Source: a bacterium
GTDB taxonomy: Bacteria > AUK180
Direction: 5' to 3'
Length of the DNA: 64,000 nt
Assembly: GCA_023144005.1 (NCBI GenBank)
Contig: JAGLGN010000022.1
Location: 62,001-126,000 of the forward strand
The notes under the pieces were generated by a model, which was not told where the DNA came from, did not search any database, and worked only from the letters and a program-made list of their open reading frames with translations. This document shows positions 15,981 to 22,787 of the stretch, one piece after another (the first letter of the stretch is position 1; the number at the start of each line of letters is the position of its first letter). The position numbers were made by a program, and so were the translations under genes.

Positions 15981-17729
15981 ATGAAAAAGGCATTTTTAAT
16001 TGCTTTATTGTTTGTTTGCCTGATCTCTGGAGCATTTTCATTTGAGATTATTGTCTCTGATTCACGGACCGATTCTATTTCAAATAAGATCAGATGGCCG
16101 GATGACCTGAAAGAGCTCGAGCCCGGGCTTGCCGGGTTGGATCCATCATTTTACGGTGAGGGAGGAGTTTTGTTTCTTTCCACTCCCGGACTTTCTTCGT
16201 CGCATACCTCGATTATTTTCAATTCATTGATAATTAATGATCCCGCAAACGGTACGGTAGACCTTTCGACCCTGCCCCCCTGGATGTTGGGGTTGGCGAA
16301 AATAATTAAAGATGACACATCTTCCGCGGCCGGGTCTCAGGGCCTTGGAGGTGCGCTGATCCTTTCGGGAAGGTCTCCACGCCTTCCAGGTATTGAGATC
16401 TTCATGGATGTGAATTCCTTTCGACTTACATCTTATCTCCCTGCGCATACCGCATTGGGGACAGTCGTTTTCTGGTATTCCTTAAAAGAGGGCGGGGATA
16501 ATAGGGCCAATAGCGCCCATCTTACGCAAGATCTGTCCCTGACCTTTGATCTCAAGGGACCATTGTATGTAGGAGTTTCCAGCAATCGGACAGATATGGG
16601 CACGCCCGGCCCTGTGCCGTCAGCCGAATATTATCAGGACGATTATACAGGGCCTACGTCACTTTATCCCGAAAATACATATTCAGGTGATGTCAACAGG
16701 ATCATTGTTTCTTATATGACAGAAACTTTCTCTTCGGACCTGCTCTTTGAAAGCAAATATCAGGAATACCTTTCATACTACTACGGCTCACCATATCTAT
16801 CCGTTCTTGAGGATGATTTTATTAAATTTTCCATTGCGGGTGAATTGCAAAGCCAAGGCGATCTGGCTTTGAAGGGAAATTTCGCGGTGGATTCTCAGAA
16901 TTATAACGGCAAAAAGCATTCGGCGGCACATATGACGCTTAATACTGTTTCCTCGCTCACAGGTTTAGGGCTGATGGTGAAATCCGATCAGGAATTGATA
17001 AGAAACAGGAATCATATCTCATGGAAATTCTATTGGCAGCCCCAACTGGAGGATATCGATCTGAATGCGTCGTTATCCTATGGTATCAAATTGCCTTCAT
17101 TGAATGATCTGTATTTTGATTACGGCGGCAATGAGCAGCTGCTTCCCGAAAGGGGATATTCATTATTTCTTTCTGCCTCTTATAAGGCATTTAATCTGGA
17201 GTATAAATACCTTGACATAGACAAAATGATACGATGGGTCGAAACCGATCCAATTAATTATCTCTACTCCGCCGAGAATTCCGAGCGTATCAGTAATCAT
17301 TCAGTGACCCTTGGCTTCCGGTATCAATTCAAAGATATCTGCATAGAGAATACCACGATATTAACGGCAGGCAAGCGTCATCAGGGAGATTTCGAAACAG
17401 TTAATGAGGACCTGTATCAGGGCCTCCTCAGGACACCGCTTTTCAAGAATGTTTCAAAAATAAGTTTTCACAGGGGGCGATTTTCGGCTATTCTGACGCA
17501 TCTTTACAAAAGTAGTGAGACGAATATTTATTACAATTCCATGGAAAAGATCCTTCCCGCCATGGGTGTTTCGGATTTCAAGCTCTCTTATGATATCGGC
17601 CACGGCGCAATCACTTTAGGCGTGAAAAATCTCTTTGATCTTAACGGAGCGATGGAATTCGGCGATTCGTTTTATGACGGGGACTATCCGATGAAACGCC
17701 GTACTTTCTTTGCTGAGTTCTCATTATGA
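15981..17729 (+). CDS. btuB: TonB-dependent outer-membrane receptor (BtuB-like)
   Basis: A 582-residue protein with signal peptide MKKAFLIALLFVCLISGAFSF. A plug-like region at about 40-135 includes LFLSTPGLSSSHTSIIFNSLIINDPANG and GSQGLGGALILSG. The remainder alternates polar and aromatic residues, as expected for a 22-strand barrel. NRTDMGTPGPVPSAEYYQDDYTG-type loops and the end FFAEFSL, with an aromatic before the last residue, fit an outer-membrane barrel. Cobalamin specificity is inferred from the riboswitch directly upstream and the BtuF-C-D genes downstream. The sequence itself is divergent from E. coli BtuB. Confidence 0.87.
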   Translation: MKKAFLIALLFVCLISGAFSFEIIVSDSRTDSISNKIRWPDDLKELEPGLAGLDPSFYGEGGVLFLSTPGLSSSHTSIIFNSLIINDPANGTVDLSTLPPWMLGLAKIIKDDTSSAAGSQGLGGALILSGRSPRLPGIEIFMDVNSFRLTSYLPAHTALGTVVFWYSLKEGGDNRANSAHLTQDLSLTFDLKGPLYVGVSSNRTDMGTPGPVPSAEYYQDDYTGPTSLYPENTYSGDVNRIIVSYMTETFSSDLLFESKYQEYLSYYYGSPYLSVLEDDFIKFSIAGELQSQGDLALKGNFAVDSQNYNGKKHSAAHMTLNTVSSLTGLGLMVKSDQELIRNRNHISWKFYWQPQLEDIDLNASLSYGIKLPSLNDLYFDYGGNEQLLPERGYSLFLSASYKAFNLEYKYLDIDKMIRWVETDPINYLYSAENSERISNHSVTLGFRYQFKDICIENTTILTAGKRHQGDFETVNEDLYQGLLRTPLFKNVSKISFHRGRFSAILTHLYKSSETNIYYNSMEKILPAMGVSDFKLSYDIGHGAITLGVKNLFDLNGAMEFGDSFYDGDYPMKRRTFFAEFSL

Positions 17730-18499
17730 AAAAACTTGCGTTAATCTGTATTTTGATCTTCGGCGTTTTGGGGTATTCGAGTGGAATTGTATCACTTGCT
17801 CCGAATATTACAAGAATGCTCATTGACCTGGGATTAAAAGAACAGATCATAGGCACTGTATCCTCGGGAAACACCTTTGCCGCCAATGTCGGTACCTTTG
17901 CCATTCCTGAACTGGAAGAGGTCCTTAGGCTGAAGCCCCGCTTGGTTTTCTATACGGGAATTATTCAAGAACCCTTAGGAAAAAAATTGAAGGACCTTGG
18001 CCTGGAAGGTAAACGCATATATATTTCCTCTGCCGAAGAATTGAGATCCGCCTATATGGAATTGGGATCGATCACAGATACTGAAACGAAAGCGCACCAG
18101 ATCATCCTTCAAATTGATCGAACGCTCTCGGCTTTTAAGATCGGCAGTCCGCTGAAGGTGATCCTTCTTCTCTGGTCGCGGCCGTATTACTCCTGCGGGC
18201 CGGAAACATTTATAGGTGAACTGATCTCTGTTTCCGGTATGGAGAATGTATCGCAAGTATCCAAAGGGCGCTATGCTATCATTTCCGCAGAGACATTGAT
18301 AAGATCCCGTCCGGATATTATCATAATATGTGCTGAAGATCATGACGCGGTAAGAAATCTACTTCTGAAAGATCCGGTTATCAAGGGGAGCGGCTTGATC
18401 GATAATCTCAGAATAATTGTTATAGAAGAAGCTGCGAAGGTGCTTCAGCCCTCGCTTGATGCGCTTGAGGTCTGGGAAAAGCTCTTGAATGAGATCTAA
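17726..18499 (+). CDS. btuF: Cobalamin ABC transporter substrate-binding protein
   Basis: A 257-residue periplasmic binding protein with a signal peptide (MKKLALICILIFGVLGYSSG). The BtuF/FhuD-type fold is shown by IVSLAPNITRMLIDLGLKEQIIGTVSSG at the mature N-terminus and LKPRLVFYTG. The KVILLLWSRPYYSCGPETFIGELISVSGMENV region belongs to the second lobe. Its start overlaps the stop of the receptor gene (ATGA), and its end overlaps btuC by 11 bases. The cargo is inferred from the riboswitch. Confidence 0.9.
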   Translation: MKKLALICILIFGVLGYSSGIVSLAPNITRMLIDLGLKEQIIGTVSSGNTFAANVGTFAIPELEEVLRLKPRLVFYTGIIQEPLGKKLKDLGLEGKRIYISSAEELRSAYMELGSITDTETKAHQIILQIDRTLSAFKIGSPLKVILLLWSRPYYSCGPETFIGELISVSGMENVSQVSKGRYAIISAETLIRSRPDIIIICAEDHDAVRNLLLKDPVIKGSGLIDNLRIIVIEEAAKVLQPSLDALEVWEKLLNEI

Positions 18500-19433
18500 T
18501 ATATTCAGAATTCTCTTCTATCTTTGCTTTCTTGCTCTCATCCTCTTATGTCTTTTTTGGGGGCTCTCCGCCGGAGAAGGCTATATACTCCTTGCCGTGC
18601 GGCTCCCGAATCTTCTGGTCGCGCTTATTTCCGGCGCGTCATTAGGCCTTGCGGGGGCGTTGTCGCAGATGATCTTCAGAAATCCATTGGCGGATCCGTA
18701 TATATTGGGCGTCTCCGCCGGTTCATCGGCAGGTATCTCTCTTGCCTTCCTTACAGGCGCATATACGCTTTTAGGATATTTTTCTATATTCATTCTATCC
18801 TTTTCCGGCGGCATCTTCGCTCTTCTGGTAATATTTTCGGTCTATTCCGCTTCCCGTAGAAAGGATACGGTGATATTGCTTCTTTCCGGAGTGATCTTCG
18901 GCTACATAGCGGTGTCTCTTACCTCATTGATCCTGTCGAATCTGGAAGGCAATATTATTTTTTCCCTGACCGAGTGGCTCTTTGGAACCACCGCATTCTT
19001 TGATATGACGATCATAGGTATCTTTGCCCTTCTTCTTTTAGTGGTGATCATTATATCCCTGATGCGGCATCGTTCATTGGACCGTATGTATCTTTCAGAC
19101 AAGAAGATGCTTTCCCTGGGAGAGGACCCCATCGCCAATAGAAAATTCTTTTTCTTTCTCATAGCTCTGCTGGTTTCATTTTCGGTTTCCGTTACGGGGA
19201 TCATCGGCTTTTTGGGCTTGATCGCTCCCCATATCGCCCGTCGCCTGAAGGGATCAAATGCTAAGTCCATGATCCCGTTGTCTGCCATTACGGGAGCATT
19301 TCTTCTTACCGCCGCCCATTTGCTTTCACTGATAGTGAAGGGGATCAGAGTCCCTGTCGGTATAAGCATCTCGCTTATGGGGGGGATATATTTTATCATT
19401 CTGCTGAGGAGGGGATATGCTTCTGAGATTTGA
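18489..19433 (+). CDS. btuC: Cobalamin ABC transporter permease (FecCD family)
   Basis: A 314-residue inner-membrane permease with about 9-10 hydrophobic segments. The family signatures are VRLPNLLVALISGASLGLAGALSQMIFRNPLADPYILGVSAGSSAG (split here as the VRLPNLL and NPLADPYILGVSAG motifs) and FLGLIAPHIARRL near 240. These match BtuC/FecD. The start overlaps btuF and the end overlaps the ATPase gene by 17 bases. Confidence 0.94.
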   Translation: MRSNIFRILFYLCFLALILLCLFWGLSAGEGYILLAVRLPNLLVALISGASLGLAGALSQMIFRNPLADPYILGVSAGSSAGISLAFLTGAYTLLGYFSIFILSFSGGIFALLVIFSVYSASRRKDTVILLLSGVIFGYIAVSLTSLILSNLEGNIIFSLTEWLFGTTAFFDMTIIGIFALLLLVVIIISLMRHRSLDRMYLSDKKMLSLGEDPIANRKFFFFLIALLVSFSVSVTGIIGFLGLIAPHIARRLKGSNAKSMIPLSAITGAFLLTAAHLLSLIVKGIRVPVGISISLMGGIYFIILLRRGYASEI

Positions 19434-20085
19434 TAAGGTACATTTGAAGAGGGGCGGCTTTACTTTTTTTCTGGACAGAATATTCCCGGATTCAGGTATG
19501 ATCGGCTTAGCGGGTCCGAACGGCAGCGGGAAGAGTACTTTAATGGATCTCGCCACCTCCATCGTGAAGCCGTCTTCAGGTATAATTTATTACGATGAAG
19601 ATAAATTGAGTACCATTGCCACGAATTGTTTCCCCGATATTTTTTCCTGTATGTATGCCGGTGAAGAGCCCTTCGGCGGGTTTTCAGGCGCGAAATATAT
19701 TGATATTCTCTCCTCGATCCCCGAAGCTTCAGCCGCCGCGGCGGAAAGATTTCCCGTTATCCGGCCTTTTCTGCACCGTGATATCCGAGAATTGTCCCGT
19801 GGTCAATGGGTATCATTGCTTCTTTCCTCATTACTTATCGTTTCCAGCCGGATTTTATTTATCGACGAATACATGCTCTTTCTTGACCCCTATCACCGGG
19901 AATTATGGACGGATCATCTGAAAGATCACGCAAAGACAGCGCCGGTATTCATTATCACACATGAAACAGGATTCCTTTATGAGAAATGCGATAATGTTCT
20001 TGGCCTGAAGAACGGCCGTGAGATGTTCTGGGAAAAAGCCTCCGCTCTTGACGGCTCAATACTCAAAGACCTCTATCACCCCTGA
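19417..20085 (+). CDS. btuD: Cobalamin ABC transporter ATPase, with divergent signature motif
   Basis: A 222-residue ABC ATPase. Walker A is GPNGSGKST and Walker B with its catalytic glutamate is ILFIDEY. The switch histidine is in IITHE. The ABC signature, normally LSGGQ, is ELSRGQW here, so the first glycine of the motif is replaced. The chain is slightly short because the region between Walker A and the signature is compact. Its position, overlapping btuC, makes it the partner of that permease. The divergent signature may lower ATPase activity without abolishing it. Confidence 0.88.
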   Translation: MLLRFDKVHLKRGGFTFFLDRIFPDSGMIGLAGPNGSGKSTLMDLATSIVKPSSGIIYYDEDKLSTIATNCFPDIFSCMYAGEEPFGGFSGAKYIDILSSIPEASAAAAERFPVIRPFLHRDIRELSRGQWVSLLLSSLLIVSSRILFIDEYMLFLDPYHRELWTDHLKDHAKTAPVFIITHETGFLYEKCDNVLGLKNGREMFWEKASALDGSILKDLYHP

Positions 20086-20090
20086 AAACC

Positions 20091-20119
20091 TTGCGAAACT
20101 GAAAAAAATAGTGTAAAAT
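20091..20119 (+). promoter_or_regulatory. Promoter of the BMC-gmk-coaBC operon
   Basis: TTGCGA (20091-20096), 17 bases, TAAAAT (20114-20119). The predicted start is about 12 bases before the start codon at 20138, and GAGG at 20128-20131 is the ribosome-binding site. Confidence 0.65.
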
Positions 20120-20137: not shown

Positions 20138-21004
20138 ATGGATAATAATGCGTTAGGATTCGTTGAAGCTAAGGGCATCACAGGTGTGGTCGAAGCCCAG
20201 GACCGTCTTCCGAAAACAGGGAATATCCAATTTCTAAATCTTTTACCTATCGGCGGCGGTCATGTGATCACCGTATTTAAAGGCGGCTTGGCCGAATTGC
20301 AATATGCCCTGGATTCAAATTATGATCCCGAGAAGAAGCATTCTTCAATATACATGGCAAAGGTTCTTGAGGGTCCCCATCCTGAGATCCTGGATATTGC
20401 CTCTGATAATGTTCCCGATAAGAGAGCTGCTCTACAGGGCTCTGCCATGACTATCATTGAAACGCGCGGCTATGTGTCAATGGTCATTGCCGCTGATACC
20501 GCATTAAAGAGCGGTGATGTGTCCGTTTCCAATTGGCTTTCTATTGGCGGCGGCATTTCTGCTGTCGTTCTTCGTGGCGATGTTGCTTCATGCCGTTCCG
20601 CAATGGAAAACGCTACCGCTGCGGTCGCTGAAGAGTACAGGTACGCATCGGTTATCATAGAGAATCCGCATGAGCAGATCGATCTCAAAACTCCCGTATT
20701 TTCATCAGTCAGATTAAAAAAGGGCTCAGGCAATTTCATCAAAGGTACTGCTACCGGGCTGGTGGAGACACGCTCATTCGCAGCATTGATATTTGGTCTG
20801 GACCGCGGTCTGAAGTACGGCGATACGAAACTTTCATCTGTACATAAGGTCGGTTCAACATATATCTCAGGTGTCTTCAAGGGTGAGGTCTCCGAGATAC
20901 AGTCCAGTGTCAAGGCCGCTTCGGAGGGAATCAATATGGTGAAATCCACCGAGGGTTCGCTGATCCTGCCCAATTCCCATGAGGATGTCCACAGGATAGT
21001 CTGA
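20138..21004 (+). CDS. Protein of three tandem BMC (microcompartment shell) domains
   Basis: A 288-residue protein made almost wholly of three PF00936-type BMC domains. Domain 1 (5-86) begins ALGFVEAKGITGVVEAQD. Domain 2 (103-184) begins AMTIIETRGYVSMVIAAD. Domain 3 (205-288) begins ATGLVETRSFAALIFGLD. Each has the pore-loop position of PduA-type proteins (PIGGG, SIGGG, KVGST) and the [VF]xGx strand after it, and each ends near an NPHE/NSHED/GPHPE motif. BMC-H proteins have one domain and form hexamers; BMC-T proteins have two and form trimers. Three domains would allow a two-chain pseudohexamer, which is my inference. No microcompartment enzymes or pentamer genes lie nearby. It has its own promoter and shares TGATG with gmk. 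Confidence 0.88.
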   Translation: MDNNALGFVEAKGITGVVEAQDRLPKTGNIQFLNLLPIGGGHVITVFKGGLAELQYALDSNYDPEKKHSSIYMAKVLEGPHPEILDIASDNVPDKRAALQGSAMTIIETRGYVSMVIAADTALKSGDVSVSNWLSIGGGISAVVLRGDVASCRSAMENATAAVAEEYRYASVIIENPHEQIDLKTPVFSSVRLKKGSGNFIKGTATGLVETRSFAALIFGLDRGLKYGDTKLSSVHKVGSTYISGVFKGEVSEIQSSVKAASEGINMVKSTEGSLILPNSHEDVHRIV

Positions 21005-21630
21005 TGCTGCCGGAAAAAGAATATTCATATGAAGCAGGTTTTTTAGTCGTTCTGACCGCCCCGTCCGGTGCGGGTAAAACCACCATACGAGAGGGAGTTC
21101 TCAAATCCCATCCAGAAATAATGTATTCAATTTCGGCTACGACCCGTCCCAAGCGGGATGATGAGAGCGACGGACAGGACTATTTCTTTGTTTCCCAGGA
21201 TAAATTTGTGGAAATGATAGAGAATGATGAAATGATCGAATGGGCAAAGGTGCATGATCATTATTACGGCACCCCAAAGAATTTCATTAAGGAAAATATA
21301 CGGAAGGGTTTAATAATTATCATGGATATCGATGTTCAGGGCGGAGTGAATATCAAAAAGCGTTTTCCCGACGCTGTCTTCATCTTTGTACTACCTCCTT
21401 CTTTTGAGGAGCTGGGACAGCGGTTGATAGAAAGGGGTACCGATACCATGGAAACGATTAAATTACGGGTAGAGAACGCTCGTAAGGAGATCGGCCTCAT
21501 GTACAATTACAATTACATCATTGTGAACGATGATATTAATCTGGCGATCCTTGAAACGGAATCCATTATCATTGCCGAGAAGTGCCGTGTTTCAAGAAAT
21601 GTTGACTTTTATAAAGAGTATTTGAAATGA
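21004..21630 (+). CDS. gmk: Guanylate kinase
   Basis: A 208-residue enzyme that phosphorylates GMP to GDP. The P-loop is A19-P-S-G-A-G-K-T26. The GMP-binding segments are SATTRPKRDDESDGQDYFFV and EWAKVHDHYYGTP. VDVQGG-type DIDVQGGVNIKKRFPD is present. The length is normal. In many bacteria gmk lies beside coaBC with rpoZ between them. Here rpoZ is absent from that place, and the upstream slot, often held by yicC or remA, holds the triple-BMC gene. Start and stop both overlap the neighbours. Confidence 0.95.
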   Translation: MLPEKEYSYEAGFLVVLTAPSGAGKTTIREGVLKSHPEIMYSISATTRPKRDDESDGQDYFFVSQDKFVEMIENDEMIEWAKVHDHYYGTPKNFIKENIRKGLIIIMDIDVQGGVNIKKRFPDAVFIFVLPPSFEELGQRLIERGTDTMETIKLRVENARKEIGLMYNYNYIIVNDDINLAILETESIIIAEKCRVSRNVDFYKEYLK

Positions 21631-22787
21631 AAATAGTAATTGGTATCACTGGCTCCATTGCTGCTTATAAAACCAATACAGTGATCCGTGATCTGGTGAA
21701 GAAGGGTCATTCGGTCGCGGTGATACTTACGGAGTCTGGAATGAAGTTCACATCCCTTCTAACCCTTAATACATTCGCAACAGAAGGTGTTTATACTGAT
21801 ATATTCGACGAAACTATTGAACAGCCAATTCACATCCGGCTTGCCGGATGGGCTGACCTGTTGTTGATCGCGCCCTGTTCGCTGAATACGATATCAAAGA
21901 TGAGCTCCGGCATTGCGGACAACCTCTTATTGGCCACCTATTTTGCATTCAGAGGCCCGGTTATGATAGCTCCCGCTATGAATGACCGTATGTATGAAAA
22001 TCAGGTGAATAGAAGAAATTTACAAAGAGTTATGAAAGACGGAGTGATCCAGATCCCGCCAAGATACGGGGATCTTGCTTCATATGATTCCGGACGCGGT
22101 CCTATGGCGCAGCCCGAAGTAATAGTTGAAGAAGTTGAAAATCATATGAATTACTCCTCCGATCTTGCTGGAAAGAAAGTCCTGATCACCGTTGGGGGGA
22201 CGATGGAAAATATCGATCCTGTCAGGGTCATATCCAACCTTTCCACAGGCAGTATGGGTTATGAGACCGCTTTGGCTTTTTATAGAAGGGGTGCTGAAGT
22301 CACCTTGATCACATCCGTTGTCCGGCCCGTTCCTTCTGATATTGCGATCATCAAAGCGCTTTCTTGCGCGGATTTTTTCAAGGCGGTGAAGGCCGAGTTT
22401 AGTTCCACGGGTATCTTCATTTCCGCCGCGGCGATCTCTGACTTTATCCCTGTGGAAAATAAGCAGAAGATAAAGAAGAAAGATTTTACAGGGAAATTGG
22501 CCTTTAAAAAGGCGAACGACATACTCGCATGGGTATTGAAAAATCGTAAAAAGAGACAGAAGATCATCGGTTTTGCCGCCGAAACAGATCTTTCAAAGAA
22601 TAATATAGAAGAGAAGATGAGATCAAAAGAAGTGGATATCCTCTTTGTCAATCTTATTTCCAACCGATCGGGTTTTGGTGATAAGCCCGTTACCGGGAAG
22701 ATAATATCTGGAAAACGCATAATTGAGATGGAGGGGATTACTAAGGCAAAAGCGGGGCAATTGCTCTGTGACCTTGCGCAAGGATAA
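21627..22787 (+). CDS. coaBC: Phosphopantothenoylcysteine decarboxylase/synthetase, catalytic Cys replaced
   Basis: A bifunctional CoA-biosynthesis enzyme of 386 residues. The CoaC half has the flavin motif GITGSIAAYK, the active-site H69 in IHIRLAGWADLL and the P116-A-M-N119 motif. The CoaB half begins near 184 (VLITVGGTMENIDPVR), with ISNLSTGSMGYETA and a KIKKKD motif. The substrate clamp that reads ACGDxGxGRM in E. coli reads A151-S-Y-D-S-G-R-G-P-M160 here, so the conserved cysteine (C158 in E. coli) is a serine. All other active-site residues I can locate are present. It is coupled to gmk by a 4-base overlap. Confidence 0.94.
   Translation: MKIVIGITGSIAAYKTNTVIRDLVKKGHSVAVILTESGMKFTSLLTLNTFATEGVYTDIFDETIEQPIHIRLAGWADLLLIAPCSLNTISKMSSGIADNLLLATYFAFRGPVMIAPAMNDRMYENQVNRRNLQRVMKDGVIQIPPRYGDLASYDSGRGPMAQPEVIVEEVENHMNYSSDLAGKKVLITVGGTMENIDPVRVISNLSTGSMGYETALAFYRRGAEVTLITSVVRPVPSDIAIIKALSCADFFKAVKAEFSSTGIFISAAAISDFIPVENKQKIKKKDFTGKLAFKKANDILAWVLKNRKKRQKIIGFAAETDLSKNNIEEKMRSKEVDILFVNLISNRSGFGDKPVTGKIISGKRIIEMEGITKAKAGQLLCDLAQG

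Follow-up and report, generated by a model that had tools for sequence, protein, structure and literature searches.

Classifications of bacterial microcompartment (BMC) shell proteins published in 2014, 2021 and 2022 describe one or two PF00936 domains per chain (PMC4207490, PMC8217296, PMC9052549). The DNA analysed here (the window) is a stretch of 64,000 nucleotides from contig JAGLGN010000022.1 of assembly GCA_023144005.1, and it carries a gene for a protein with three such domains, D1 to D3, which we refer to as the triple. Each domain of the triple resembles BMC-H proteins such as EutM, PduA and CcmK in its BMC fold, its edge lysine and its pore loop, which is of GGG type or GS, and taken singly the domains match chains of these proteins in a sequence search of the Protein Data Bank (PDB). 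BMC-H proteins differ in having a single PF00936 domain, whereas the triple has three non-identical ones, and a ring made from it would hold fixed heteromeric positions. The BMC-Ts proteins, among them PduT and Haliangium ochraceum BMC-T1, are also linear fusions of unpermuted BMC domains, and a two-domain stretch of the triple superposes on them. However, they have two domains, about 180-200 aa and three chains per ring, in contrast to the three domains, 288 aa and, as we propose, two chains per ring of the triple. The best PDB sequence match is 6ner, an engineered BMC-H tandem, which is likewise a fusion of BMC-H domains but one with two near-identical domains (the entry is titled 'Synthetic Haliangium ochraceum BMC shell'); the next matches are natural shell proteins with two domains or one. 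We propose that the triple forms a facet tile as a two-chain pseudohexamer, that this tile belongs to a shell resembling those of the sugar phosphate utilisation (SPU) type, that all triples go back to one ancestral fusion and that the protein is supplied separately from the rest of the shell. We give this explanation, taken as a whole, a probability of about 0.7.

The domain content of the protein is clear from profile searches. Pfam finds only PF00936 in the whole 288-aa protein, three times over (E 2.3e-41). When D1, D2 and D3 are cut apart they score 37.9, 64.7 and 47.2 bits, so that each stretch passes the curated Pfam cut-off of 24.5 bits by itself and the protein belongs to the PF00936 superfamily. 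The Pfam profile meets D1 over positions 1-56 of 75 only, while a hidden Markov model (HMM) built here from related BMC sequences, which also set the borders of all three domains (Table 1), covers it as a full domain. The initial annotation, made from the DNA alone, had placed the protein outside the known classes, and this holds: there are three domains in the window protein and in all its orthologues, against one per chain in BMC-H and exactly two in BMC-T. Every domain aligns from profile position 1 in the standard strand-helix order, which is the linear, unpermuted arrangement of BMC-Ts proteins. NCBIfam gives sub-threshold matches only, the best being CcmO, EutM, PduT and CsoS1. The pore loops of the window protein are, by position, GGGH (D1), GGGI (D2) and GST (D3), and in most triples D3 can be recognised by a KVGS motif. 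Each domain also has an invariant lysine, which, from the alignment and from knowledge of the family, we take to be the counterpart of the tile-edge residue K26 of PduA. We found no description of triple or three-domain BMC proteins in the open-access literature; subscription papers and supplementary tables lay outside that search, and an unremarked catalogue entry is possible.

A frameshift or a faulty assembly could in principle create such a protein, for example by joining a BMC-T to a neighbouring BMC-H through a missing stop codon, and adjacent BMC-H genes are indeed common in other genomes. However, unbroken three-domain frames occur in 11 genomes of three groups, and these intact orthologues refute an artefact, to which we give practically no weight. 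In the window's phylum, where seven genomes were examined (five of them from the window's family), three other genomes carry intact three-domain orthologues of 283-292 aa, which bears out the reading of an unbroken gene. The triple is present in four of the five genomes of the family, and the other three copies are 100, 53 and ~45% identical to that of the window. Of the 867 bases, 19 differ between the window gene and the copy from the same genus; 18 of these changes are silent and fall at third positions, and the remaining one turns Ile into Val. With nearly all differences silent, the gene bears the mark of strong purifying selection, and it is intact. On the minus strand, window positions 20470-20973 hold an overlapping frame of 167 aa, which probably results from codon usage.

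A scan of public genomes revealed further triples in Candidatus Sumerlaeota. A search of 40 Sumerlaeota genomes brought their number to six, of which one is cut in two by a contig end, and a search of 386 genomes added a third group, consisting of two genera of one family. In total, triples were collected from 12 genomes, the window's included: four in its phylum, six in Sumerlaeota and two in the third group. Long frames in three more genomes (G240, G096 and G158) were rejected as triples, since they hold BMC-T proteins with two domains or adjacent genes with one domain each. No relative was found in a scan of viral contigs, and among the matches listed from a plasmid search the two with the most query coverage are pairs of separate BMC genes. 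BMC-P (pentamer) genes are present in every triple-bearing genome that was checked. In three Sumerlaeota genomes (G041, G042 and G071) the three domains of the triple are the only PF00936 matches genome-wide, and each of these genomes has three BMC-P genes.

The initial annotation had described the triple as standing alone, with no pentamer or aldehyde dehydrogenase gene nearby. The latter is correct for the neighbourhood that was read. It does not extend to the genome (2.67 Mb, 96% complete), in which both are found on other contigs, and the protein cannot be said to stand apart from any microcompartment. The genome has three PF00936 genes, namely the triple on contig C15, one BMC-H and one two-domain BMC-T, as well as three BMC-P genes. 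Contig C33 holds a metabolosome locus with the BMC-H, the BMC-T, two BMC-P, an aldehyde dehydrogenase, a PduS/RnfC-like protein and RpiB. Because this full locus is on another contig, the triple counts as a satellite gene of the shell, in that a main locus with BMC-H and BMC-P lies elsewhere in its genome (as defined by Axen 2014, PMC4207490, and Sutter 2021). The third BMC-P (contig C2, L011:1477-1800) is isolated from the others and immediately precedes genes resembling ymdB and miaA, and the shell genes of this genome are thus seen scattered into housekeeping operons.

The closest described counterparts of the main locus are the SPU loci of Sutter et al. (2021), all of which have the enzymes RpiB and DeoC in common (PMC8217296). 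The likeness extends to the aldehyde dehydrogenase, RpiB (PF02502), BMC-T, BMC-H and BMC-P, and to three BMC-P in the genome. The differences are the shell set, which includes the triple, a class without an entry in the list of PMC8217296, and the position of DeoC. Of the SPU enzymes, RpiB and the aldehyde dehydrogenase are in the locus, while the only genome match for DeoC (PF01791) lies outside it on contig C28 (L142:1465-2772). Because of this the SPU type of the main locus is likely rather than shown. The DeoC frame is 435 aa long, with ~210 extra N-terminal residues that match no Pfam family, and adjoins an enolase-like gene; the long protein is possibly a cargo of the compartment.

AlphaFold2 predicts three BMC folds for the window protein, with a predicted local distance difference test (pLDDT) of 84.7 and a predicted template modelling score (pTM) of 0.85, and gives one Sumerlaeota triple values of 82.5 and 0.81. 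In both models ~180 residues superpose on 8ui2_A, which has the BMC-T fold (TM 0.82 and 0.85 by target length, root-mean-square deviation 2.4 A). We suggest that the three domains, fused in one chain and non-identical, make a facet tile of a microcompartment shell in which they would probably lie side by side at three consecutive positions of a hexagon. Two chains would then close a pseudohexamer of two-fold symmetry. Since no facet protein other than the triple was found in some genomes, a hexagonal tile probably consists of two copies, and two chains per pseudohexamer is probably the best reading. The initial annotation had foreseen three different pores on one tile, which does not agree with known BMC hexamers. 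These have one central pore, and therefore the three kinds of loop would line a single pore, with two copies of each. We would expect the tile to take its place in the shell of the SPU-like metabolosome, with its aldehyde dehydrogenase, PduS-like electron carrier and RpiB, that is encoded elsewhere in the genome.

A different possibility is that the triple is in effect a BMC-T, two domains of which form the usual trimeric pseudohexamer while the third hangs off the ring and caps the tile or recruits cargo. The good fit of ~180 residues to BMC-T chains would be expected from this, the D2-D3 linker, which is poorly predicted, is long and of low confidence in both models, and in the tree described below no domain has diverged more than D3 of the window family. 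Nevertheless, all three domains retain the edge lysine and the residues of the BMC core in every lineage, the whole chain has a pTM of 0.85, and three genomes yielded no further PF00936 protein that could complete the facets. If this is true of them, their facets must consist of the triple alone. A hanging third domain therefore seems unlikely to us.

Several points weigh against the two-chain tile in an SPU-like shell. Among the matches listed by Foldseek at most two domains are superposed and none of the matches extends over three, so the place of the third domain in the ring depends on pTM alone. The AlphaFold2 alignments held six sequences only, and the two-chain assembly is derived from models of single chains. 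In the window protein, the Arg of the PRPH edge motif is missing from all three domains. The genomes in which the triple is the sole facet protein are draft metagenome-assembled genomes, though the three agree. That the triple and the proteins of the main locus share one shell is something we only infer.

The domains of the triples correspond in order between the groups. D1-D1, D2-D2 and D3-D3 is the best of the six possible pairings in 6/6 between-group comparisons, with a bootstrap over columns of 0.62-0.998. In a tree of the domains, one clade (0.94) unites all D2 and also takes in the window family's D3, which sits on a long branch; another (0.87) joins the D3 domains of Sumerlaeota and the third group, and D1 of the window family likewise groups with D1 of the third group (0.95). 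A clade of all D1 is weakly supported (0.29). Because of the matching order, the triples most likely go back to a single fusion between BMC-H-like genes in an ancestor. The tree places two adjacent BMC-H genes of Opitutales close to the D1 and D3 domains, a hint that neighbouring genes of this class may have been joined.

In all four triple-bearing genomes of the window's family, which represent three genera, the triple gene lies directly 5' of gmk and coaBC with overlapping start and stop codons. From this position, the protein would be made by a housekeeping operon and its supply would not be tied to the main locus. The gene had been credited with its own promoter; a promoter-like site does lie upstream, and it is a consensus match only. 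The same arrangement would be expected if the triple worked outside the metabolosome, forming a sheet, tube or scaffold of its own that perhaps holds Gmk and CoaBC, and the distance from the main locus fits with this as well. However, BMC-P genes accompany the triple in the genomes checked, and where the surroundings were read in the other two groups the triples adjoin housekeeping genes unrelated to microcompartments and different in each group. In addition, gmk and coaBC stay together without the triple in G002, a member of the same family. We regard a separate scaffold as quite improbable. The proposed link with nucleotide or CoA supply is likewise unsupported, since the linkage to gmk-coaBC is confined to the window's family and these two genes persist without the triple.

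The history of this linkage can be approached from the same comparisons. In G002 a transposase-like gene (L143:567-1466, identified by eye from the sequence) stands directly before gmk in the place of the triple. In the sister family one genome has two genes resembling yicC and remA before gmk, and the other has yicC. Given these gene orders and the presence of the triple in 4/5 genomes of the family, its gene probably came to lie before gmk in the common ancestor of the window's family and was probably lost in G002. Directly upstream of the triple (window positions 15981-20085) lies a set of genes resembling a corrinoid or iron-chelate uptake system, with an outer-membrane receptor, a binding protein, a permease and an ATPase; the ATPase, the only member checked by profile, matches PF00005. 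The genes upstream of the triple differ in G003 and G004.

Table 1. Features of the triple gene and its neighbours (window positions), and related genes in other genomes (positions within the named locus)
Feature	Position	Strand	Remarks
Triple-BMC shell protein gene	20138..21004	+	single open frame from ATG to TGA, 288 aa; three PF00936 matches above cut-off; orthologues elsewhere
BMC domain 1 (D1), residues 4-87	20147..20398	+	pore loop IGGGH
BMC domain 2 (D2), residues 102-184	20441..20689	+	pore loop IGGGI
BMC domain 3 (D3), residues 204-287	20747..20998	+	pore loop VGST
Flexible D2-D3 linker, residues 185-203	20690..20746	+	pLDDT <50 at residues 189-197
Lys26, putative tile-edge lysine of D1	20213..20215	+	invariant in 8/8 aligned triples
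Lys124, putative tile-edge lysine of D2	20507..20509	+	invariant in 8/8 aligned triples
Lys226, putative tile-edge lysine of D3	20813..20815	+	invariant in 8/8 aligned triples
Promoter-like site upstream of triple gene	20091..20119	+	9/12 matches, consensus match only
gmk, guanylate kinase	21004..21630	+	start codon overlaps stop of triple gene by one base
coaBC	21627..22787	+	overlaps gmk by four bases
Sumerlaeota triples	L035:5998-6885, L036:4140-5027, L080:1459-2346, L081:1498-2379, L082:1498-2370		
Adjacent BMC-H pairs, Opitutales	L037:6022-6591, L041:5998-6567		possible source of the fusion

The triple may represent an additional kind of building block for hexagonal shell tiles, with three PF00936 domains per chain and two chains per tile, in at least three bacterial lineages. 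Because it is the only facet protein in some Sumerlaeota, a whole shell could there be built from one triple and pentamers, with the fusion fixing the order in which three different subunits surround the pore; we put this wider proposal at even odds. A natural three-domain class would add a tile of two-fold symmetry to the present scheme of one or two domains per chain. It would also show how nature can set which pore loop follows which, something that shell engineers seek. If it is true that certain Sumerlaeota have the triple and pentamers only, they would be a small system in which to learn the minimal number of parts of a shell.
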